Shown here one piece after another: positions 27,858-37,845 of a stretch of DNA of 64,000 nt (position 1 is its first letter; the number at the start of each line of letters is the position of its first letter). Position numbers and translations under genes: made by a program. Below the pieces are notes generated by a model. The model saw nothing but the letters and a program-made list of their open reading frames with translations, did no database searches and had not been told where the DNA came from. The DNA is from Paenibacillus timonensis (GTDB lineage Bacteria > Bacillota > Bacilli > Paenibacillales > Paenibacillaceae): NCBI RefSeq assembly GCF_009725205.1, contig NZ_WNZY01000009.1, positions 62,001 through 126,000 on the forward strand. Reading direction: 5' to 3'.

Positions 27858-28472
27858 ATGTCCAGTTCCCATCTCACCAAAAGGGCGCTTGCCGCCTCGC
27901 TGAAAAACAGGATGAACCATATCCCCCTCAATAAAATTACCGTTAAGCATCTCGTGGACAATTGCGGCCTAAACCGGCAAACGTTCTATTATCATTTCCG
28001 GGACATTTACGAGCTCCTGGGTTGGATTTACCAGACCGAAGCGGTGGATGCCATCGCCGGGGAGCACGGCTACCACACCTGGTCCAGCGGCTTTCTGAAA
28101 ATATTCAAATATATCGAAGAGAACCGATTATTTTGTTTGAACACGCTGAATTCCCTGGCACGAAGCCATCTGGACTCGTACCTGTATAACGTCACAAACC
28201 ATCTGGTCATGGAGGTCGTGGAAGAAGTGTCCGTAGGAATGCAGGTGGATGAAGCGGATCAACGGTTTCTGGCAAATTTCTATGCGTTGGCGTTTGTCGG
28301 GTTGATCGTTAGATGGATGCAAGATGGCATGAAGGAACGTCCGGAGAACATCGTCGATAAGCTTGGTGAACTGGCTGACGGCCATTTCGAACGAGCGCTG
28401 CAGCGATATGAACAGAAAGCCTGCACGTCCAAAGTTTCAAGTCATCAACGTAAATGGTTTTGCTCGAAATAG
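27858..28472 (+). CDS. TetR/AcrR-family regulator
   Basis: 204 aa. The N-terminal helix-turn-helix region ITVKHLVDNCGLNRQTFYYHF is atypical in detail but clearly TetR-like (written here as KHLVDNCGLNRQTFYYHF, residues about 33-50). The C-terminal half resembles the TetR_C domain of DhaS-like regulators. AGGTGA precedes the ATG at 27858. It lies directly before the oleate hydratase gene on the same strand but with its own terminator in between; control of that gene in response to fatty acids is a reasonable inference, not shown. Confidence 0.85.
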   Translation: MSSSHLTKRALAASLKNRMNHIPLNKITVKHLVDNCGLNRQTFYYHFRDIYELLGWIYQTEAVDAIAGEHGYHTWSSGFLKIFKYIEENRLFCLNTLNSLARSHLDSYLYNVTNHLVMEVVEEVSVGMQVDEADQRFLANFYALAFVGLIVRWMQDGMKERPENIVDKLGELADGHFERALQRYEQKACTSKVSSHQRKWFCSK

Positions 28473-28493
28473 GGCCGATTTCGTCGGAATCCT

Positions 28494-28521
28494 AGACACT
28501 CCCTGAGGAGTGTCTTTTTTT
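28494..28521 (+). terminator. Intrinsic terminator of the TetR gene
   Basis: AGACACTCC/GGAGTGTCT stem with a CTGA loop followed by a run of eight T. Confidence 0.9.
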
Positions 28522-28614
28522 TATACAACCGCGCTCCATTGATGATTTTGTTTCCTTCAAAGAGAGATTACATTGAGATTGTTCCATTCATCACATTCCT
28601 TGGAGGCGAAGGTA

Positions 28615-30195
28615 ATGTCAGTAGAACTTAACACGAGACAGGTTTATTTGGTCGGCGGAGGAATCGCTTCACTGGCGGGAGCCGCTTTCCTGGTGCGAGA
28701 CTGTGATTTTCCCGGCCAAAATATTCACGTATTGGAGGAAATGAAGGTGCTGGGCGGCAGCAACGACGGCGCCGGTAACGGTGAGCAAGGATATGTGATC
28801 CGCGGCGGCAGGATGCTGAATGATGAGACTTACGAAAACACTTGGGATCTGCTGCGTTCCATCCCTTCGATAGACCATCCGGAGCTTTCGGTGCGGGATG
28901 AAATCATCGCTTTCGATAACGCCCACCCGACGCATTCCAACGCCCGATTGGTGAACCGCGAAGGCCAGGTGGAGGACGTCACTTCCATGGGCTTTGATAT
29001 GGCGGACCGGCTAGCGATGGTCAAGCTGATGATGACCCCCGAGGAGAAAATGGGCAAAGCGCGGATTAACGATTGGTTTGGGCCACATTTTTTCGAGACG
29101 AATTTCTGGTACATGTGGGCGACGACGTTCGCCTTCCAACCTTGGCACAGTGCCGTGGAGTTCAAAAGATACATGCTTCGATTCATGCATGAGTTCCCAA
29201 GAATTAATACTTTGGAGGGAGTCACCCGCACGCCGTATAACCAGTACGACTCTATTATTTTGCCGCTGCAAAAATATCTGGAGGAGCACGGCGTGGATTT
29301 TTCGCTGAAATGCACGGTCACGGATCTGGATTTCCGCGAAGGCGATGAGATCACCGTTACGCGAATGCACTATCTGAAGGAGGGGGTTCCGGGAGAACTA
29401 GATTTGGCAGAGGGAGATCTGGTGATTGTGACCAATGGTTCGATGACGGAGGGCTACAGCTTAGGCTCAATGACCTCGGCGCCGAAGCTGAACGGCAAAG
29501 GGAGCTCTTGGCTGCTGTGGGAGCGCATGGCCGCGAAGAAACCGGGGCTTGGTCGTCCCTCCTCCTTCGACGATCATATCGATGGGTCAAAATGGGAGTC
29601 GTTTACGGTCACCTGTCAGGACTCGCACTTCTTTAACCGGATGGAGGCCTTCTCCCGCAACAAGGCGGGAACCGGCGCGCTTGTGACCTTTAAAGATTCA
29701 AGCTGGTTGATGTCCATCGTGCTGGCCCATCAGCCGCATTTCCGCAATCAGCCGGAGCAGGTTAAGGTATTCTGGGGATACGGATTATTTCCGGATCGCG
29801 TCGGGGATTATGTGCCTAAGAAAATGTCCGAATGCACCGGTGAGGAAATACTAACCGAACTGCTGCACCATCTCCATTTCGAACAGGACATGGAGGCCGT
29901 CATTTCCACGGCGAACTGCATTCCATGCATGATGCCGTTCATTACCGCGCAGTTCATGCCTAGAACGATCGAAGATCGGCCAAAGGTTATCCCGGACGGT
30001 TCAACCAACCTGGCGTTGATCAGTCAATTTTGTGAAATCCCGGACGATGTCGTATTCACCGAAGAATATTCCGTCCGCGCAGCCCGTATGGCGGTGTATG
30101 GACTGTTAGGGTTAAATAAGCCCATTGCCCCGATCAATCAATACCAGTACGATGTACGCACGCTGCTGCAGGGCTTGGTCACCTCCTTCCGATAA
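28615..30195 (+). CDS. ohyA: Oleate hydratase (MCRA family), Met-type active site
   Basis: 526 aa FAD enzyme that adds water across the cis-9 double bond of unsaturated fatty acids to give 10-hydroxy acids, which detoxifies host or plant fatty acids. FAD-binding motif VGGGIASLAGA (residues 13-23), NDGAGNG, and long family blocks such as GPHFFETNFWYMWATTFAFQ-type sequence and YNQYDSIILPLQ. Where well-studied enzymes have the catalytic glutamate in RGGREM, this protein reads RGGRML (Met67), as in the Rhodococcus-type subfamily. GGAGG stands eight bases before the ATG at 28615. A promoter within the stretch after the TetR terminator is likely. Confidence 0.93.
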   Translation: MSVELNTRQVYLVGGGIASLAGAAFLVRDCDFPGQNIHVLEEMKVLGGSNDGAGNGEQGYVIRGGRMLNDETYENTWDLLRSIPSIDHPELSVRDEIIAFDNAHPTHSNARLVNREGQVEDVTSMGFDMADRLAMVKLMMTPEEKMGKARINDWFGPHFFETNFWYMWATTFAFQPWHSAVEFKRYMLRFMHEFPRINTLEGVTRTPYNQYDSIILPLQKYLEEHGVDFSLKCTVTDLDFREGDEITVTRMHYLKEGVPGELDLAEGDLVIVTNGSMTEGYSLGSMTSAPKLNGKGSSWLLWERMAAKKPGLGRPSSFDDHIDGSKWESFTVTCQDSHFFNRMEAFSRNKAGTGALVTFKDSSWLMSIVLAHQPHFRNQPEQVKVFWGYGLFPDRVGDYVPKKMSECTGEEILTELLHHLHFEQDMEAVISTANCIPCMMPFITAQFMPRTIEDRPKVIPDGSTNLALISQFCEIPDDVVFTEEYSVRAARMAVYGLLGLNKPIAPINQYQYDVRTLLQGLVTSFR

Positions 30196-30252
30196 GTCCG
30201 GGACAGAGTGAAACGGCACATTGCCAAAATGACCCATTTCAGGTAATCTAGG

Positions 30253-30258
30253 TATAAT
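30253..30258 (+). promoter_or_regulatory. Perfect -10 box before the Rpn gene
   Basis: TATAAT about 100 bp before the Rpn-family gene, with no clear -35. The start site would place the hairpin at 30283-30333 inside the leader. Confidence 0.4.
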
Positions 30259-30282
30259 CGAGTTTCATCCATAAGCGAAGCG

Positions 30283-30333
30283 AAGCACACTCGCGCATCC
30301 GTCAATCCTTGGCGTGCGTGGTGTGCTTTTTTT
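30283..30333 (+). terminator. Intrinsic terminator between ohyA and the Rpn gene
   Basis: AAGCACAC pairs with GTGTGCTT, with additional GCGC pairing inside, followed by seven T. It may end the oleate hydratase transcript or attenuate the downstream gene. Confidence 0.75.
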
Positions 30334-30357
30334 GCGATAAGAAAGGAAGTGTTGTCT

Positions 30358-31308
30358 TTGGCAATGAAATTATCCTCGGTCCAGCAAGTCCGAGAGGAGC
30401 CGCAAAGAGGCAATTATGGAAAAAGGGGCCTCCCTCACGATGAAGCGTTTAAAAAACTGCTTCATACGTTTTTCGCTGAATTTATCGCTTTGTTTTTCCC
30501 TGAATTAGAACAGCAGCTAGACTTCAGCCAAACCCGTTTCCTCATGCAGGAGCAGCTTGTTGATGTAGTAGGGGAAGAAGCGCGAACGCTGGATCTTCTG
30601 CTAGAGACGAAGTACGTGGAGACGGATGCTTTCATCCTTATTCATCTGGAACCTCAGTCGTATCGGCAGGCAGACTTCCACGAGCGAATGTTTATCTATT
30701 TCAGCCGGCTTTTTGAACGGCACCGGAAGGAACATCAACTGATCATTCCCATCGCCATCTTTACATCAACTGAAAGTAAGAACGAGCAGAACTCCTTGAT
30801 CATGTCGATTCCAGGAGAAGACATTCTCCAATTTCGGTTTTTGAAAATAGAACTGATCAACCAACCCTGGCGTAAGTTTATCGAATCTAACAACCCTGTA
30901 GCTGCTGCATTACTAGCTAAAATGGGATACAATAAAGGGGAGGAACGAGAGCTCCGATTTGCCTATCTGCGTATGCTGCTGCAGCTCAGCCAAAGACTGG
31001 ATAATGCCCGTCTTGCATTGGTGATGTCCATCGCCGACTTGTATTTTGAACCGGATCCCAGGCAGGATGAAGAAATGCTTCGGGAACTGGCGAAACAATA
31101 TGTAAAGGAGAGTGAAGTGATTATGGAACTCATGCCTGCTTGGATGCGTCAAGGTTATGAGAAGGGCCTGGAAGAAGGGCTGGAGAAAGGCTCCCTAATT
31201 GAACGCCAGCATATCGCACGCAGATTGTTATCCAAAGGCTTCTCTCCAAAGGAAGTCGCCGACACAACCCAATTACCGATCGAGGAAGTCAACAAAATAA
31301 TCAACTAA
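30358..31308 (+). CDS. Rpn-family recombination-promoting nuclease / transposase-like protein
   Basis: About 316 aa. The N-terminal two-thirds fit the PD-(D/E)XK nuclease fold of the Rpn/PDDEXK transposase-associated family: HDEAFKKLLHTFFAEFI, then LDLLLETK and ILIHLEPQSY carry the acidic and Q/K active-site positions. The C-terminus has the usual GYEKGLEEGLEKG helix and a short helix-turn-helix-like tail (GFSPKEVADTTQLP). Such proteins cut DNA and are horizontally mobile within genomes. AAAGGAA gives best spacing to the TTG at 30358; GTG at 30349 and ATG at 30364 are alternatives. No inverted repeats bound it. Confidence 0.75.
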   Translation: MAMKLSSVQQVREEPQRGNYGKRGLPHDEAFKKLLHTFFAEFIALFFPELEQQLDFSQTRFLMQEQLVDVVGEEARTLDLLLETKYVETDAFILIHLEPQSYRQADFHERMFIYFSRLFERHRKEHQLIIPIAIFTSTESKNEQNSLIMSIPGEDILQFRFLKIELINQPWRKFIESNNPVAAALLAKMGYNKGEERELRFAYLRMLLQLSQRLDNARLALVMSIADLYFEPDPRQDEEMLRELAKQYVKESEVIMELMPAWMRQGYEKGLEEGLEKGSLIERQHIARRLLSKGFSPKEVADTTQLPIEEVNKIIN

Positions 31309-31328
31309 CAAATTGACCGAAGGATAAA

Positions 31329-31357
31329 GAAGCCTCATCTACGCGATGGGCTTTTTT
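31329..31357 (+). terminator. Terminator of the Rpn gene
   Basis: AGCC-CATC/GATG-GGCT hairpin followed by six T; it overlaps the end of the convergent Spo0E-like gene. Confidence 0.7.
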
Positions 31358-31524
31358 CTTCGGTAATCAGAGTACGTGACTTTACTATATTTATTCAACA
31401 ACCGGTCAAGAACAACCGACTGATGGAGTACCCGTGCATGCCGCAAGCCATATCTCTGTGCTAACCGATTTAATTCCTGTCTTTCCATTTCAATGCGGAA
31501 TCTGATTTTTTCAGAATTGTTCAT
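31339..31524 (-). CDS. Spo0E-like sporulation-regulatory aspartyl-phosphate phosphatase
   Basis: 61 aa, the usual size of the Spo0E/YisI/YnzD family. Two short helices, RFRIEMERQELNRLAQRYG and LHQSVVLDRLLNKY, match the family hairpin; the conserved SQxLD block is present in the diverged form HQSVVLD with the aspartate kept. These proteins strip phosphate from Spo0A and delay sporulation. AGGGTG lies six bases before the ATG at 31524. It sits just downstream of the RRNPP regulator and its peptide gene, separated by a terminator, so a link to peptide signalling is possible. Confidence 0.7.
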   Translation of the reverse strand: MNNSEKIRFRIEMERQELNRLAQRYGLRHARVLHQSVVLDRLLNKYSKVTYSDYRRKKPIA

Positions 31525-31565
31525 AGCTATCACCCTAGGAACATATTAGAAGAGGTTGCCAAATA

Positions 31566-31588
31566 TTGCATAATGAAACCTAATGCAA
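31566..31588. promoter_or_regulatory. Inverted repeat upstream of the Spo0E-like gene
   Basis: TTGCAT and ATGCAA half-sites separated by 11 bp lie 42-64 bp before the start codon, in the promoter region; a candidate operator, binding protein unknown. Confidence 0.35.
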
Positions 31589-31665
31589 GAAACAAAAAAA
31601 TTCCATTTTTTGAAATGTTACAGCACGGAATATGGCTAACTCTTTCTCTATATGCGCTATAAAAT

Positions 31666-31707
31666 AAAAATAGGGTCAACCCTAAAAAGGGCTGATCCCT
31701 ATTTTTT
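31666..31707 (-). terminator. Intrinsic terminator after the peptide gene
   Basis: Long hairpin: ATAGGG-TCA-ACCCT and AGGG-CTGA-TCCCTAT arms around AAAA, with A/T runs on both sides. It ends the regulator-peptide transcript 24 bp after the peptide stop. Confidence 0.85.
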
Positions 31708-31730
31708 CAAATGGTTCAAGTCGAAATATA

Positions 31731-31841
31731 TTAACCCCAATAACCATGTGACAATGCTGCAATTAAACCAGTACCACTAGCCAAACCTACCAAACTAACC
31801 ATTGTCAAAGCCGAAACCGTATAAAACATTTTCTTTTTCAT
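31731..31841 (-). CDS. Secreted signalling propeptide, AloP/Phr-like (36 aa)
   Basis: A 36-codon reading frame that overlaps the last 47 bases of the regulator gene in another frame. GAAAGGTG stands eight bases before its ATG. The product begins MKKKMFYTV, has a hydrophobic export segment (residues 6-30) and ends ALSHGYWG. That is the layout of RRNPP propeptides: signal-like leader and a mature oligopeptide cut from the C-terminus, most likely the last five to ten residues. The ending SHGYWG resembles mature AloP peptides of Paenibacillus polymyxa (one is SHGRGG as far as I recall). Inference: secreted, processed, re-imported by an oligopeptide permease and bound by the regulator encoded upstream. 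Confidence 0.75.
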   Translation of the reverse strand: MKKKMFYTVSALTMVSLVGLASGTGLIAALSHGYWG

Positions 31842-33186
31842 TTTCCCACACCTTTCTACACAATTCTTCAAAAATTTTATATTGCTCCTCAGTTACGAAC
31901 TTACGATTCAGTTCAATTAATGTCATGCAATTCACGATCATAGATTTATTATTCAAAGAAATTGCCATCTTTAAGCTGTATAGTAAGCTCCTTATACCTT
32001 CTTCATAATTCTTTTTCCTCAGATTATAAATTGCGTAATTCTGAAAAAAAACGGAACAACGGTTCACACTGACTACCGATTCTGGAAACCACTTATCTTT
32101 ACCAATCAACCTGTATTTTTCAATTTCTTCGGAAAATCGATCAAGAATATCATCAATGTAAAACTGATAGCGATTGGCCGATTCTACTAATGTTATCAAG
32201 CCTTCCACCAGTTCATCGGGTTCTTCTTCCAAGAATTGAACATACTTAGGAATTTTTGATCGATCCCCCGTTTTAATATCCATGCAAAGATAATTGGCTT
32301 GCGCAAACATTTTAAATTGTTCGATAACGGCAGTTTGGGCTTCATCATCGGCATTAAACCAACTTAAATCCGCATATTCAGCAATCCATTTCTTTGCTTC
32401 CTCAAACATTCCTCTATATTCATAAGAGCCGGATTTGAAAAGATAGCCCCTACCATAATAATAAACAAGAGGACGGAGTGGCTTGAAATCACTGTATTTC
32501 CACACTTTTCTTTCATATAACGCTTTAGCTAATGTGCAAAGTTCATCTGCGTAAGCTTCGGCTTCAGACCAATTAAATTTAAGCGAATAAACTTCGACCA
32601 ACATTAGTATTCCATCGAGTGCATACACTTCCGGCAAACGATGTCTGTAGGGTAAAAATTGCATTGCCGTTTTAAATCCCTTATCACTATCCATGCTGTG
32701 AATTTTAAACAACCGGTAGTAACTCATCGCCAACCGCTCGGAATGACTGGATCGCTCGCTTTCAATTACGGCTTCATACAGAATGACGGCGGCTTCTTTC
32801 AACCCCTGAACAAACATTTGTTCCGCCGTATCGAAAATCCCCGCAATCTGCTTCAAATCCTCTAGTAATCGGCTTAATACCTGATTAATGCAATCATGCT
32901 TCTGCAATTCAGCGCATCTTAGAAGGAACGGTCGTAACCTTCTCCAATGCGGAGCAGTTGAAGTAAAACACTCATCAGCGTATAAATCGTAGAAGTGTCC
33001 CTCAGACAGCCCCATTGCCGCTGTGATTCGGTCCAACTGTCCGATCGCAATAGGTCGGTTTCCGTTAATAATTCCGCTTAACGTTCCGACATTAACTCCG
33101 GCAGTTTCCGAAAAGCGATGTAGGGTTGTCCCTTCGCTCTTGATGTAGTCTTCCAGTTCTGCGCGAATCGTGGTTGTGGATATCAA
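31795..33186 (-). CDS. RRNPP-family (AloR/AimR-like) peptide-responsive regulator
   Basis: 463 aa from a TTG start behind GGGGGG. Residues about 5-60 form an XRE-type helix-turn-helix (LHRFSETAGVNVGTLSGII, then IGQLDRITAAMGL). The remaining 400 residues are all-helical with TPR-like repeats, the peptide-binding scaffold of the PlcR/NprR/AimR/AloR group. A 36-aa propeptide gene overlaps its 3' end, which is the standard receptor-signal arrangement. It lies in an AT-richer stretch than neighbouring genes and has a strong SigA promoter. Its targets are unknown; candidates are its own operon and the adjacent Spo0E-like gene. No phage genes are nearby, so a lysis-lysogeny role like that of AimR is unlikely. 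Confidence 0.85.
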   Translation of the reverse strand: MISTTTIRAELEDYIKSEGTTLHRFSETAGVNVGTLSGIINGNRPIAIGQLDRITAAMGLSEGHFYDLYADECFTSTAPHWRRLRPFLLRCAELQKHDCINQVLSRLLEDLKQIAGIFDTAEQMFVQGLKEAAVILYEAVIESERSSHSERLAMSYYRLFKIHSMDSDKGFKTAMQFLPYRHRLPEVYALDGILMLVEVYSLKFNWSEAEAYADELCTLAKALYERKVWKYSDFKPLRPLVYYYGRGYLFKSGSYEYRGMFEEAKKWIAEYADLSWFNADDEAQTAVIEQFKMFAQANYLCMDIKTGDRSKIPKYVQFLEEEPDELVEGLITLVESANRYQFYIDDILDRFSEEIEKYRLIGKDKWFPESVVSVNRCSVFFQNYAIYNLRKKNYEEGIRSLLYSLKMAISLNNKSMIVNCMTLIELNRKFVTEEQYKIFEELCRKVWENEKENVLYGFGFDNG

Positions 33187-33312
33187 AAAATTATCGCCCC
33201 CCAATTCCGCTTACTTCTATGAGCCGAATAATCTCGACTGATAGAGCAACCAAACGACATCCAATGACATCAAGCAACACCATATACTTCTAAAATTCCA
33301 ATTTATGTTTAC

Positions 33313-33341
33313 ATAATAATCCTAAATTTGACAGTCGTCAA
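33313..33341 (-). promoter_or_regulatory. SigA promoter of the RRNPP regulator
   Basis: TTGACG (33341-33336), 17-bp spacer, TATTAT (33318-33313) on the minus strand. The palindrome-like TATGTAAACATA starts within the -10 region and could be an operator. The leader is about 120 nt. Confidence 0.65.
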
Positions 33342-33344
33342 TAA

Positions 33345-33387
33345 GAAAAAAGACCGATAAGCAACTATTTTGTCTGCTTATCGGTCT
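33345..33387 (-). terminator. Terminator of the aldo/keto reductase gene
   Basis: AGACCGATAAGCA/TGCTTATCGGTCT stem followed on the minus strand by six T. Confidence 0.9.
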
Positions 33388-33399
33388 AATTGTAGTTTC

Positions 33400-34293
33400 C
33401 TAGATTTCTAGCTCCGCCGCAGCCGCATTCGCTTCCACTTGCGCCGGATTTTTGCAGCCGGGGATCACCGTGCTAACGATCGGATTCTTTAGGCACCAGG
33501 CCAAAGCCCACTGGGCCATATCTACGCCCTCCGGCACTTCATTCCGACGGATCTCCTCTACTTCCTCAAGCTTGCGGCGGGTACTTTCCGGGTCATGATG
33601 GTGGCGTACGTCGGTCTCGCCGAACACTGCACCCGGTTTATATTTGCCACTGAGGTAACCGCTAGCCAGCGGTACCCGGGCAAGCACGCCCAAGTCCTGG
33701 CGCTCGCAGGATGGGAACACCCGGTTTTCCGGCACGCGGTCCAGTCGGTTATAAACCACCTGGATCGCCTCCGAACCTACCTTGGACGAAGCCTCGGTCT
33801 GATGAAGGTTATCGTTGCTGCCGATCGAAGTGCCTAGATGAAGGATTTTCCCCGCTTGCTTCTGCTTATCCAACAGCGTCCAGAGTTCATCATGATCAAA
33901 CGCCGCATCCGGCCCGGAATGGAATTGGTACAAATCAATATAATCGGTCTTCAGCGCCTTTAACGAAGCGTCTAGCTGCTGCAGTACCGCCTCAGCTTCA
34001 AACCGATCCGTCCGCGTGAACCGTTCATGGAACTGATGCCCGAATTTCGTGGCAACCAGCCAATCTTCCCGGTTTCGCCGACTCAGATAATCTCCGATAA
34101 ACGATTCGGACAAATGATCGCCATAGCACTCCGCCGTATCGATCAGGTTGATGCCAAGCTCCCGGCCCCGGTCCAAAATCGCATCCACTTCCGCTTGCGT
34201 ATAATTCAAGCCCCACTCTCCGCCGAACTGCCAAGTACCGATGCCGACCACGGAAACGTTCAGGCCGGTTTTGCCTAATTTGCGATATTTCAT
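33400..34293 (-). CDS. Aldo/keto reductase
   Basis: 297 aa NADPH-dependent reductase with the TIM-barrel signature GRELGINLIDTAECYG (Asp and Tyr of the catalytic tetrad), VATKFG (Lys) and YQFHSG (His), plus a C-terminal cofactor segment IVSTVIPGCKNPAQVEAN. It should reduce an aldehyde or ketone; the class resembles YghZ/YajO-type general reductases. GGAGG stands nine bases before the ATG. The RhaM-type mutarotase gene lies 28 bp upstream in the same direction, so the two are probably cotranscribed. Confidence 0.88.
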   Translation of the reverse strand: MKYRKLGKTGLNVSVVGIGTWQFGGEWGLNYTQAEVDAILDRGRELGINLIDTAECYGDHLSESFIGDYLSRRNREDWLVATKFGHQFHERFTRTDRFEAEAVLQQLDASLKALKTDYIDLYQFHSGPDAAFDHDELWTLLDKQKQAGKILHLGTSIGSNDNLHQTEASSKVGSEAIQVVYNRLDRVPENRVFPSCERQDLGVLARVPLASGYLSGKYKPGAVFGETDVRHHHDPESTRRKLEEVEEIRRNEVPEGVDMAQWALAWCLKNPIVSTVIPGCKNPAQVEANAAAAELEI

Positions 34294-34321
34294 CTTCCAA
34301 TCCTCCCGATGTGAATTGATT

Positions 34322-34654
34322 CTATTTCAAGTAAAAAACCTCGCGCATCGGCACGATCGGCTGTGGCTCGTTAAAGTCAAACGAACCCTCGACCATCCCC
34401 GACGTAATCGCGTTCCACCGTTGACAAACCTCACTATCCGCGATGTACTTGAAAGCCGCGTCCGGATCATCGCATTCGAAGCAATAAAAGAACTGATTCC
34501 CCTGCTGAAAAATCGAATAGTTTCGAATGCCCGCTTGGGTATGCTCTGCGAGCACCTCCGGCCAAGGGTTCAAATGCAGGTCAACGTAAGCCTCCAACTG
34601 GTCTTCCTTCACGCGCCAGGTCCAGGCGAACTTCCGGCTTGGACTGATTCCCAC
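34322..34654 (-). CDS. L-rhamnose mutarotase-like protein (RhaM/DUF718 family)
   Basis: About 110 aa. A dimeric ferredoxin-like alpha/beta-barrel protein that interconverts alpha and beta anomers of L-rhamnose. Family landmarks visible are the central HLNPWPEVL (HxxxWPE), GIRNYSIFQQG and ECDDPDAAF, and the C-terminal MREVFYLK. The GTG start at 34654 is preferred, six bases after GGGAGGG; an in-frame ATG five codons earlier overlaps that site. With the neighbouring aldo/keto reductase and aldehyde dehydrogenase, it could belong to deoxyhexose breakdown via lactaldehyde; that is inference because no rhamnose kinase or isomerase is in the window. Confidence 0.8.
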   Translation of the reverse strand: MGISPSRKFAWTWRVKEDQLEAYVDLHLNPWPEVLAEHTQAGIRNYSIFQQGNQFFYCFECDDPDAAFKYIADSEVCQRWNAITSGMVEGSFDFNEPQPIVPMREVFYLK

Positions 34655-34706
34655 GAAAATCCCTCCCATGAAAAATTCATTTACTTTGACACCTTCAGAT
34701 CCCCAT

Positions 34707-36131
34707 TCACTTCATAAAGCGTCGGATCAACTTCAATTTACCGGCGGTATAAGGCGGATAAATGAAGCTGAGGTTAATCCGCGTTGACTTCTTTAGCACG
34801 CTTTTTCGATGAGAGAAGGTTTCGAAGCTGTAGCGTCCATGATAAGCCCCCATGCCGGAGGACCCCACACCCCCAAAGGGCAGATACGGGCTGACCAGAT
34901 GCATGACCGTGTCGTTGATGCACCCGCCGCCAAACGAAACCGACTCCATCACCTTCCGCTCTGTTCCGGAGTTGCTCGTAAACACATACAATGCCAATGG
35001 CTTAGGCCGCTCTCCGATGTTCCGAAGCGTCGCATCCAGATCCTGATAGTCCAGCACCGGCAAAATCGGCCCAAAGATTTCTTCCTGCATCACTTGGTCT
35101 TCCCAGCTTACGTTCTCCATAATCGTCGGCGCCAGGTACAAATCCTCACGTTCCCCAGTCCCTCCGACCGCTACCTTCGACGAGTCCAACAACCCCATCA
35201 ACCGGTTCCAATGCCGCTCACTCACGATCCGCCCGTAATCCGGACTTTGCTGCGGATCATCCCCGTAGAATGCCGTGATCTGTGTCTTCATTCTGGCGAT
35301 CAACTCCGCTTTGACCGACTCGTGAACGAGCACATAATCCGGGGCCACGCAAGTCTGACCCGTATTCAGAAACTTCCCCCAAACGATCCGCTGAGCGGCT
35401 AACTCCAGATCCGCCTCGCGATCGACGATACAAGGGCTTTTCCCGCCAAGCTCCAACACGACCGGCACCAGATGTTCAGCAGCCGCCGTCATCACAATTT
35501 TTCCAACCTGAATGCTTCCGGTGAAAAAGATAAAGTCGAGCGGGGCATGAATCAGCGCGGATGTGACCTCCTGCCCTCCCTCCATGACCCGGATGTACTC
35601 GGGATCAAAATATTCACCGAGCATCTCGGCAAGGACCCCGGAGACGTGCGGCGTATACTCCGACGGCTTAACAATCGCGGCGTTTCCCGCAGAGATCGCC
35701 CCGATTAACGGATCGATCACCAGCAAAAACGGATAGTTGAACGGGCCGATGATCAGCGCCGAGCCGTAAGGCTCCCGGTAGATATAGCTGCTGGAGCCGA
35801 TATGGGTTAGCGGCGTACGGACCCGCTCCGGTTTGGCCCACTGCTTTAGTCGCTTCATCACGTATCCGATACTGTCGTAAGCATAGCCAACTTCCGTGCT
35901 GTAGCCTTCAAGCTCGGGTTTGCGCAGATCCCGCTGCAGCGCCTCCAAAATACGCGTTTCGTAACGGGCAATGGCCGTCTTCAAACGCTCCAGTTGGCGC
36001 AGCCTGAATTCTACCGAACGCGTGGCGCCGCTGCGGACGTATTGCTGTTGAGCGCGAACGACCGCTGCGACGGATCGCTCGGGTGGCTGTGCATCGGTAG
36101 GCGCTTGGGTCGAATTCTCGGTTTCACTCAA
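34707..36131 (-). CDS. Aldehyde dehydrogenase (class 3/YwdH-like)
   Basis: 474 aa NAD(P)-dependent enzyme oxidising aldehydes to acids. The oxyanion and catalytic motifs are intact: NYPF (residue about 130), the general base in VLELGGKSP, and the nucleophile Cys in GQTCVAPDYV; the C-terminus has PFGGVGSSGMGAYHG as in membrane-associated class 3 enzymes that act on long-chain or aromatic aldehydes. It starts at TTG after AGAGGG. The terminal stretch is basic and hydrophobic (NLSFIYPPYTAGKLKLI), consistent with membrane attachment. The gene is divergent from the nitrate operon. Confidence 0.9.
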   Translation of the reverse strand: MSETENSTQAPTDAQPPERSVAAVVRAQQQYVRSGATRSVEFRLRQLERLKTAIARYETRILEALQRDLRKPELEGYSTEVGYAYDSIGYVMKRLKQWAKPERVRTPLTHIGSSSYIYREPYGSALIIGPFNYPFLLVIDPLIGAISAGNAAIVKPSEYTPHVSGVLAEMLGEYFDPEYIRVMEGGQEVTSALIHAPLDFIFFTGSIQVGKIVMTAAAEHLVPVVLELGGKSPCIVDREADLELAAQRIVWGKFLNTGQTCVAPDYVLVHESVKAELIARMKTQITAFYGDDPQQSPDYGRIVSERHWNRLMGLLDSSKVAVGGTGEREDLYLAPTIMENVSWEDQVMQEEIFGPILPVLDYQDLDATLRNIGERPKPLALYVFTSNSGTERKVMESVSFGGGCINDTVMHLVSPYLPFGGVGSSGMGAYHGRYSFETFSHRKSVLKKSTRINLSFIYPPYTAGKLKLIRRFMK

Positions 36132-36266
36132 GGCGGATCCCTCTTTTTCTCGAATTCGGCGTCATTTAGGTTTGTTCTTCTATTGTAACCCGAAATTAGG
36201 TCGCTGGGCATCTTTCGACACGAATGATGGGCTCAGCATAGGTTTGTAAACTAGAAAGGTTATTCA

Positions 36267-36283
36267 TGTCATATTAACTAACA
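36267..36283. promoter_or_regulatory. TnrA/GlnR box 1
   Basis: TGTCATATTAACTAACA fits the TGTNA-N7-TNACA consensus exactly. It lies about 145 bp before the predicted nitrate-operon start site. Confidence 0.65.
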
Positions 36284-36372
36284 TATAAATTAGTAAAATT
36301 ATGATTTTAGACGTATTATACATATTTACACAACCGTCAAGATGGTTTTCGGTCAACTTTATGAACGTTTTT

Positions 36373-36389
36373 TGTAATTTATATTGACA
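36373..36389. promoter_or_regulatory. TnrA/GlnR box 2, overlapping the -35
   Basis: TGTAATTTATATTGACA fits TGTNA-N7-TNACA exactly and its right half is the -35 hexamer of the nitrate promoter, centred near -39. Confidence 0.75.
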
Positions 36390-36413
36390 TGATCTTTTTC
36401 CAGCTTCTATAAT
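36384..36413 (+). promoter_or_regulatory. Consensus SigA promoter of the nitrate assimilation operon
   Basis: TTGACA (36384-36389), 18-bp spacer, TATAAT (36408-36413). Predicted start near 36420, giving a leader of about 190 nt. Confidence 0.85.
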
Positions 36414-36423
36414 TTAACTACGT

Positions 36424-36475
36424 TCACAACGTCGTGGCGCATATAATCCGGTTTCGCACAACGCTGTGCCGCCGG
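36424..36475 (+). ncRNA. Two hexaloop hairpins in the nitrate leader (ANTAR-type target candidate)
   Basis: Hairpin 1: CAC and GTG close the loop AACGTC (36428-36433). Hairpin 2: GCAC and GTGC close AACGCT (36460-36465), extended by CCGG/CCGG at its base (36448-36475). Both loops have A at position 1 and G at position 4, the signature recognised by ANTAR-domain antiterminators such as NasR, and both begin AACG. They directly precede a terminator. Hairpin 1 is weak as drawn. Confidence 0.55.
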
Positions 36476-36481
36476 TTGGCA

Positions 36482-36528
36482 AAGGAGCCATTCGGGCAAT
36501 CCCTAGATTGCCCGGGGCTCCTTTTTGT
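36482..36528 (+). terminator. Leader terminator of the nitrate operon
   Basis: AAAGGAGCC with GGGCAAT forms a bipartite stem with ATTGCCC and GGCTCCTTT, followed by T-rich sequence, 85 bp upstream of the first gene; readthrough must be regulated for expression. Confidence 0.85.
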
Positions 36529-36612
36529 TTTGCGCCCCTCGTTGGGGCATGCCAAAAAGAAAACAGAAACGTCCCGGTTGAAGGGGATGAATCCTGGAGA
36601 GGAGATGAAAGG

Positions 36613-37845
36613 ATGGAACGTACCGGTTTTATGAAAAGTGGGCATAAGCCCTCGTTGTTGAGCGCCTTTCTGTACTTCGATGTTAGCTTTATGGTATGGG
36701 TTCTGATCGGTCCGCTGGCCGTCATCATGATGCAAGATTACCCGATGAATGCGGCGCAAAAGGCCAATCTCGTCGCTCTGCCGATCCTCGGCGGTTCCGC
36801 GCTTCGCCTCGTGCTCGGCGTGCTGGCCGACCGGATCGGTCCCAAACGGACCGGCCAGATCGGTATGGCCGTCACCCTGGTGCCGCTCGTCTGGGGCTGG
36901 CAATTCGTCGATTCGCTCAGCGAATTGTATGTGGTGGCTTTGCTCCTGGGCGTTGCCGGCGCTTCCTTCTCAGCGGCCCTGCCTTTGGCCAGCCGCTGGT
37001 ACCCGCCGCAATACCAGGGATTGGCGATGGGAATCGCCGGGGCCGGTAATAGCGGCACCGTCTTCTCCACCTTATTCGCCAACCGGATCGCCCAGCATTA
37101 CGGAGGCTGGGAAGTCGTGTTCGGGTTGGCCCTCATCCCGGTAGCGTTGGTCTTCCTCGTCTTTACGCTGCTGGCGAAAGACAGTCCCAACCAACCGGAG
37201 CCGAAAAAACTTCGCGACTACGCCGCCGTGCTCCGCCAAAGGGATACGTGGCTGTTCTGCCTGTTGTATATGGTGACGTTTGGCGGTTTCGTCGGGTTGT
37301 CAAACTATTTGACGATATTTTTTAACACGGAATATGGGCTTAGCGCGGTAAGGGCCGCCGATTTCACGACTTTGTGCGTGATCGCCGGGAGTTTCTTCCG
37401 CCCTGTGGGCGGCTGGCTGGCTGATAAGGTCGGCGGAGTACGCATGCTGCTCGCTTTATACGCGGGGGTCGCCCTCATGATGGCGTTGGTGTCGTCATTA
37501 CCGCCGCTGTCGATCGTGACCCTGCTGCTATTCATTGGCATGATGTGTCTGGGAATGGGCAACGGCTCCGTGTTCCAGCTCGTCCCCCAACGCTTCCAAC
37601 AGGAAATCGGGGTCATCACAGGCATTGTAGGCGCAGCCGGCGGGCTCGGCGGTTATTTCTTGCCGAACATTCTTGGCCTCCTAAAGCAGTGGACCGGTTC
37701 CTATACGCCCGGTTTCCTCATTCTAAGCGGCATCGCGTTGGCTTGCATTCTCACGGTGATCCTGATTCACGGCGAGTGGAAACGAACGTTTCTGGAGCGG
37801 AAGGAGGCTGCTTATGACGCTTACCCCTACAGCCGCCCATCCTGA
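36613..37845 (+). CDS. nasA: Nitrate/nitrite transporter (NNP-type MFS, NasA/NarK-like)
   Basis: 410 aa, about 12 membrane helices. The nitrate signature appears as GNSGTVFSTLFANRIA in helix 5 and GAAGGLGGYFLPNILG in helix 11, with the arginine-bearing helix ASRWYPPQYQG. It imports nitrate for assimilation. The ATG at 36613 lies eight bases after GGAGAGGAG. The 3' end overlaps the nitrate reductase gene by 32 bp. Expression should depend on nitrogen status (TnrA/GlnR boxes) and on readthrough of the leader terminator. Confidence 0.92.
   Translation: MERTGFMKSGHKPSLLSAFLYFDVSFMVWVLIGPLAVIMMQDYPMNAAQKANLVALPILGGSALRLVLGVLADRIGPKRTGQIGMAVTLVPLVWGWQFVDSLSELYVVALLLGVAGASFSAALPLASRWYPPQYQGLAMGIAGAGNSGTVFSTLFANRIAQHYGGWEVVFGLALIPVALVFLVFTLLAKDSPNQPEPKKLRDYAAVLRQRDTWLFCLLYMVTFGGFVGLSNYLTIFFNTEYGLSAVRAADFTTLCVIAGSFFRPVGGWLADKVGGVRMLLALYAGVALMMALVSSLPPLSIVTLLLFIGMMCLGMGNGSVFQLVPQRFQQEIGVITGIVGAAGGLGGYFLPNILGLLKQWTGSYTPGFLILSGIALACILTVILIHGEWKRTFLERKEAAYDAYPYSRPS

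Follow-up and report, generated by a model that had tools for sequence, protein, structure and literature searches.

The locus described here lies within the window, the whole 64,000-nucleotide stretch of Paenibacillus timonensis DNA that was analysed, and is very probably a chromosomal AloR-AloP quorum-sensing module with a spo0E-like gene adjacent to it. This reading is based on the homology of the receptor, the architecture of the locus, purifying selection on the propeptide tail, linkage to spo0E, and a conserved promoter element. The features are as follows:

31795..33186 (stop included), minus strand: aloR, gene for a 463-aa receptor with HTH and TPR-like parts, TTG start (open reading frame list, homology, tree, AlphaFold2).
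33313..33341, minus strand: sigma-70-like promoter candidate of aloR, TTGACG-N17-TATTAT (promoter scan).
31731..31841 (stop included), minus strand: aloP, gene for a 36-aa propeptide, MKKKMFYTVSALTMVSLVGLASGTGLIAALSHGYWG, ATG at 31841 (open reading frame list, 21 of 23 orthologs).
31849..31856, minus strand: ribosome-binding site of aloP, GAAAGGTG, inside aloR (sequence; G-rich site at the same place in orthologs).
31734..31751, minus strand: predicted mature signal SHGYWG, the six C-terminal codons of aloP (from AloP13 maturation and the conserved tail).
31671..31695, minus strand: intrinsic-terminator-like hairpins with a T run, between aloP and spo0E (scan).
31543..31587, minus strand: spo0E promoter element TGCA-N24-GCAAC-N5-CTAATAT, candidate AloR operator, with the -10 box TAATAT at 31548-31543 (ortholog comparison).
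31339..31524 (stop included), minus strand: Spo0E-like gene, predicted target, ATG at 31524 and an in-frame GTG at 31533 (open reading frame list, Pfam).

Judged by its sequence, the receptor belongs to the AloR family described for Paenibacillaceae and falls in a different clade from Alo13. The 463-aa protein has full-length homology to AloR13, the tested receptor of P. polymyxa (39% identity and 58% positives over 468 columns), and the match to the genome that carries the AloR13 gene (E 4.5e-99) falls within the published limits for the family (iterative search, E<1e-10, at least 250 aa). This gene was reached by searching the published AloP13 tail in 394 genomes of the family, of which three matched, one of them (G106) at 100%. 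AloR13 corresponds to the G106 locus L077, where a receptor gene stands directly upstream of an exact SHGRGG propeptide; the published reverse primer for cloning the Alo13 spo0E promoter has an exact match there, and the forward primer has none. Four genomes reached through loci contained only two chance-level matches to the AloP13 tail, both in one genome.

AloR-like matches at E<=1e-60 are present in all 40 genomes of the genus that were searched, and 23 of these genomes, counting the window's own, carry an ortholog of the window AloR (at least 58% identity). Named orthologs are those of Paenibacillus timonensis (95%), P. mellifer (95%), P. rubinfantis (94%), P. barengoltzii (89%), P. phocaensis (70%), and P. 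macerans (66%), among others. The window belongs to contig C81 of a 5.12-Mb genome in which AloR-like matches number five: besides the window aloR, C42 has three and C22 has one. A tree was built from 43 hand-picked rows; in it, the window clade of 17 rows stands among AloR-family receptors with support of 100/100, and it forms a group of 21 rows (100/100) with L032, L028, and an orphan receptor of P. ottowii and G106. AloR13 falls outside this group and instead groups with L002 of the window's genome. In the reverse search, the sole match of AloR13 to the window's genome at E<=1e-120 was the L002 place (C42:81882-83240) and not the window aloR. Because L002 is the best match of AloR13 and the tree clades differ, we conclude that the window AloR is not an ortholog of AloR13. 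A filter dropped L067 and L082 from the protein set, which produced 64 references, and alignment A1 comprised 59 references and the window AloR, with L007, L008, L010, L020, and L023 left out. The AloR family is very large, with 1,050 AloR-like hits in 149 bacteria reported in PMC7425212, and the window ortholog may already be listed in Table S2 of that paper. Thus, of the "likely new AloR-AloP-type pair" proposed in the first-pass annotation, the AloR-AloP identity is upheld by homology, tree, and conserved propeptide, and the newness is confined to that of a further member of a large described family. The closest relatives of the window AloR in P. ottowii (L055) and G106 (L076) are 47% identical, have neither a peptide frame nor spo0E downstream, and adjoin a thiD/pdxK-like gene (named by eye); eavesdropping orphans are a possible description of them.

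The start of aloR is marked in 19 of the 23 orthologs by a G-rich site and a TTG at the aligned position, and the remaining four match from residue 3-4 and have an in-frame TTG 6-9 bases upstream of the match start. The promoter candidate of aloR is weak, because six such sites occur in the region compared to 5.3 in shuffles. The HTH plus helical-repeat protein of the first-pass annotation was recovered at its coordinates, and its AlphaFold2 model (60 sequences; mean pLDDT 89.4, pTM 0.81) consists of an N-terminal HTH and a TPR-like superhelix; the Pfam HTH_3 match is weak, at 18.9 bits, below the cut-off of 23. In VIA-align, the model matched NprR (4gpk_H; Z 16.5, 6.4 A, 276 aligned), RapI (4i1a_A; Z 15.6, 4.7 A, 262 aligned), and AimR-DNA (6jg8_B; Z 13.8, 18.4 A, 368 aligned; residues 3-444), and it matched the unrelated TPR protein LGN at Z 17.9. 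Since unrelated TPR proteins such as LGN score equally high, the fold supports an RRNPP receptor and does not prove one. Foldseek against the PDB likewise placed TPR proteins on top, with AimR appearing first at rank 24 (E 1.4e-3).

The NprR-NprX, PlcR-PapR, and Rap-Phr systems resemble the locus in having a TPR receptor with an adjacent short propeptide, and NprR and Rap chains are among the better fold matches. They differ in that a profile search of PDB sequences with AloR (33 matches at E<=1, the majority of them HTH domains, with some VPS35 and others) returned no RRNPP receptor, whether NprR, PlcR, Rap, or AimR. Rap is not known to carry an HTH. Searches of NCBIfam (best E 0.13), PHROGs (best phrog_2439, 'transcriptional regulator', E 0.0009), and PADLOC (weak Csn2 matches, E 0.001, over residues 373-456) returned nothing specific for AloR. 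In a viral library, S5MC02 was far ahead of the other matches (E 1.8e-13), and tblastn with AloR found one phage record, Brevibacillus phage SecTim467 (32%), and 36 plasmid records, one of them from P. polymyxa ATCC 842 (34.7%).

By ortholog comparison, aloP is a real, conserved propeptide gene under purifying selection at its tail. The 36-codon frame, its 47-nt overlap with the end of aloR (31795-31841), and its last residues, ALSHGYWG, agree with what the first-pass annotation had read, as does a ribosome-binding site of its own (31856-31849), to which a G-rich site corresponds in the 21 intact orthologs. The frame has the marks of an AloP gene, namely an open reading frame of ~30-50 aa with a hydrophobic N-terminus that lies at or overlaps the end of aloR. 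Measured from the aloR stop, 21 of 23 orthologs have their ATG, G-rich site, and uninterrupted frame (30-36 codons) at one and the same distance, and these 21 frames encode 20 distinct peptides. The His-Gly near the C-terminus is invariant in all 21, with the third codon position of the Gly free. The window group has tails of the type HG(Y/F)WG, a middle group HGW(G/S), and an outer group HG(A/V/M)G, and these types track the receptor tree by eye.

The proposed conservation check of the frame also came out in its favour. In the five closest species, for which the counts rest on small numbers of changes, pN/pS over the 20 non-overlapping codons of aloP was 0.51, compared to 0.78 and 1.00 in the shifted frames, and the final seven codons gave 0.15; for the seven-codon tails of the full set of 21 intact orthologs the value was 0.49. 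In the five closest species, the 16 codons shared with aloR gave 1.37 and so by themselves do not argue for aloP. Two orthologs with a broken aloP, L010 and L024, were left out of these counts. In L024, the frame stops after MKK, and in L010, its start is lost together with the end of the receptor; spo0E persists in both. The first-pass annotation had taken stops in the frame beside a kept receptor as evidence against a pair. Such stops do occur in these 2 of 23 orthologs, in one with the receptor's end lost too, and the pair stands, because degenerate aloP genes are known for some Alo loci (aloR5 and aloR14; PMC7425212). We give hardly any weight to the alternative that the short frame is a chance open reading frame in the overlap and AloR an orphan receptor. 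Orphan AloRs do exist, as in L055 and L076, but this alternative is already contradicted by the comparative data, namely the frame kept in 21 of 23 orthologs, the invariant HG, and the low pN/pS over the seven C-terminal codons among the closest species.

The tested Alo13 system provides the model for function. As reported in PMC7425212, the mature AloP13 signal is SHGRGG, and RNA-seq of P. polymyxa shows lower spo0E with this peptide; in a reporter assay in B. subtilis, the spo0E promoter is turned on by AloR and turned off by SHGRGG. Spo0E-like genes follow six P. polymyxa Alo systems, a layout that the same paper compares with AimR-aimX. The window locus is like Alo13 in receptor family and domain order, in the spo0E-like gene next downstream, and in the overlap of the propeptide with the end of aloR (50 nt in L077 and 47 nt in the window). 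It differs in the sequence of its spo0E promoter and, as described above, in the identity and clade of its receptor and in the best match of AloR13 within its genome. The tails, SHGRGG and SHGYWG, have HG equally far from the end and, by analogy, the predicted window signal would belong to the same class as the mature AloP13 signal. It is unlikely that the same pair instead uses a longer tail or an internal fragment as its active signal, or works with opposite sign, the peptide activating AloR. A fixed six-residue cut is not obvious, because the clade tails differ in length after HG (HGWG is one residue shorter, and HGWGGR and HGMGINSNC are longer), and longer mature peptides were inferred for some AloPs in PMC7425212. 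Against this, HG(Y/F)WG is the ending in each of the five closest species, and SHGRGG of AloP13 carries its HG at the same distance from the end.

In the favoured reading as an AloR-AloP module, AloR, an HTH plus TPR protein, would activate the adjacent spo0E-like gene, most simply via the conserved element just upstream of that gene. The last part of the aloR message would encode AloP, whose hydrophobic N-terminus would direct its export and whose C-terminus would be released as a hexapeptide-like signal, SHGYWG. The oligopeptide permease would re-import this signal, which would bind the TPR domain of AloR and switch spo0E off; less Spo0E would mean less dephosphorylation of Spo0A-P, and sporulation would be favoured at high density. 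Export, cleavage site, and sign of regulation are here carried over from Alo13, and the target DNA of AloR and the sporulation outcome are what we infer. The locus would thus represent a further AloR clade, apart from Alo13 and with spo0E as its likely target, in 23 of 40 genomes of the genus, and SHGYWG is a concrete predicted signal.

The adjacent Spo0E-like gene named in the first-pass annotation is real, with a match to Pfam PF09388 (E 2.1e-12; score 47.2 bits, cut-off 23). It follows the pair in 22 of the 23 orthologs; in the 23rd (L015), the contig ends 225 nt downstream. By analogy with Alo13, it is probably the target of the window AloR. Between aloP and spo0E, the "strong terminator" of the annotation proved correct as to a hairpin and T run and not as to strength: the stem at 31695-31676 has eight pairs, only four of them G-C, and four terminator-like sites occur in the 2.3 kb scanned compared to a mean of 1.7 in shuffles. 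In Rfam, positions 28000-37000 had no match that reached the gathering threshold.

The S-x-E-L-D motif of Spo0E is important for phosphatase activity. At this stretch, 15 of the 22 Spo0E-like proteins of the ortholog loci, that of the window among them, have V, L, or I in place of the Glu (e.g., HQSVVLD), and the other 7 keep it; the spo0E-like target may have altered activity. A literature search for the SQELD motif found no paper.

The intergenic region upstream of spo0E is poorly conserved apart from one element, TGCA-N24-GCAAC-N5-CTAWDAT (also given as CTA(A/T)NAT), which is present with invariant spacing in all 22 checkable orthologs, the same 22 from which the pattern was read (L015 lacks the spo0E region because of its contig end). 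The window's genome has one exact match, at spo0E; with one mismatch allowed, it has one more, and a reversed control pattern also has one. Of the 40 genomes of the genus, 24 contain a single exact match each, compared to one match of the reversed control in 1 of 40. Twenty-two of these 24 matches are the ortholog loci, and the other two (G012 and G024) precede spo0E-like genes around which the 4.2-4.4 kb examined contains no aloR.

The element may be the DNA bound by AloR, and as such it is a specific guess at the binding site. We see a not quite even chance that the 45-bp element is instead just a spo0E promoter that has been conserved, or is bound by a different regulator, with AloR acting elsewhere. 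This would fit its presence before spo0E without a linked aloR in G012 and G024, and the fact that AloR-linked spo0E promoters of other clades differ, with no repeat of at least 5 bp at spacer 25 in L064, L086, and L051 (nor in L129). It fits less well with the invariant spacing within poorly conserved flanks, with the lack of a -35 consensus by eye and of any promoter-like site there in the promoter scan, and with an inverted-repeat core at AimR spacing, both here and in the L029/L030 promoters.

The AimR operator consists of two 6-bp inverted repeats 25 bp apart (PMC6458997). Because spacer-25 repeats at the window locus, in L029/L030, and in Alo13 match this spacing, we propose AimR-type operators for AloR. 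According to this tentative proposal, to which we give slightly less than an even chance, AloR would activate spo0E via arbitrium-type long-spacer operators of two short inverted half-sites 25 bp apart, with an AimP-like shut-off in which the peptide would lock the AloR dimer so that it could not span the site, as AimP does to AimR.

At all 24 sites, the core of the element reads TGC-N25-GCA, an inverted repeat that extends to TTGC/GCAA in 15 and to 5 bp in 2 of those; at 9 of the 24 sites, only three of five arm positions match. The window locus itself has a 4-bp repeat (TTGC/GCAA) and none with 5-bp arms at spacer 25. With the right arm fixed at the 24 sites, 25 was the best of 55 spacers (3.7 of 5; mean over spacers 1.25), a test in which interest in spacer 25 arose after the data were seen. 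The two L029/L030 promoters have TATGT-N25-ACATA, with an arm 5 nt before CTAGAAT; here, spacer 25 was again best (5 of 5; mean 1.65), with other spacers also high (4.5 of 5 for 8 and 4.0 of 5 for 23). L029 contains a second spacer-25 repeat, the 8-bp TATTACAG-N25-CTGTAATA, across the ribosome site and start of spo0E, and L030 has 7 bp of it at the same place, so that either repeat may be a candidate operator. A search of 394 genomes for further L030-type loci gave three matches, two of them already in the set.

Alo13 promoters have GTTAAA-N25-TTTAAC (6-N25-6) in 8 of 15 orthologs and GTTAA-N27-TTAAC in 14 of 15, the exception being L114 with a changed arm. This repeat is farther from the start codon than that of the window clade, and some 6-bp repeat at spacer 25 occurs in 5.6% of dinucleotide shuffles of the Alo13 promoter. 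The spacer-25 repeat of L067 is only poly-A/poly-T. The inverted-repeat table shows 19 loci among those in 48 unique promoters. Upstream of the spo0E-like gene of L046 (Paenibacillus sp. UNC499MF) is a perfect 8-bp repeat, ATGTAAAA-N27-TTTTACAT; an 8-bp repeat at spacer 27 occurs in 0.3% of dinucleotide shuffles. We recognised no AloR binding site in the open-access papers searched, and the terms 'operator', 'binding site', and 'inverted repeat' are absent from PMC7425212.

The arbitrium AimR-AimP-aimX system of SPbeta-type phages, as described in PMC6458997, has an HTH plus TPR receptor that activates the next gene and a hexapeptide that shuts it off, as is predicted for the window locus. In its operator, 25 bp separate the two inverted repeats; the candidate operator here has that spacing, with arms of only 3-5 bp. 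Arbitrium is phage-encoded with aimX as its target, whereas the window locus is chromosomal, with spo0E as the likely target. The window locus was judged not to be encoded by a phage or prophage: six ordinary genes neighbour the module (Pfam) and the aldo/keto reductase neighbour is kept in 9 of 10 named loci. If true, the long-spacer operator would link bacterial Alo systems mechanistically to phage arbitrium, and one switch design would be common to the control of phage lysogeny and of host sporulation.

Several other genes nearby and elsewhere in the genome were noted. An Rpn-family recombination-promoting nuclease/transposase-like gene (30349-31308) is convergent with spo0E, and a relative lies near 5 of the 10 named ortholog loci (one of the ten is cut off by a contig end), with two copies in L039. 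An MCRA-family gene (PF06100; 28573-30192), which we take to be oleate-hydratase-like, lies beside a TetR-type regulator. In L095 (G000:C42:78000-92000), three AloR-like genes stand in tandem; no propeptide-like frame passed the filter downstream of L004, and L002 and L003 each have one, with the tails ENGVGG and SSHHGGG.
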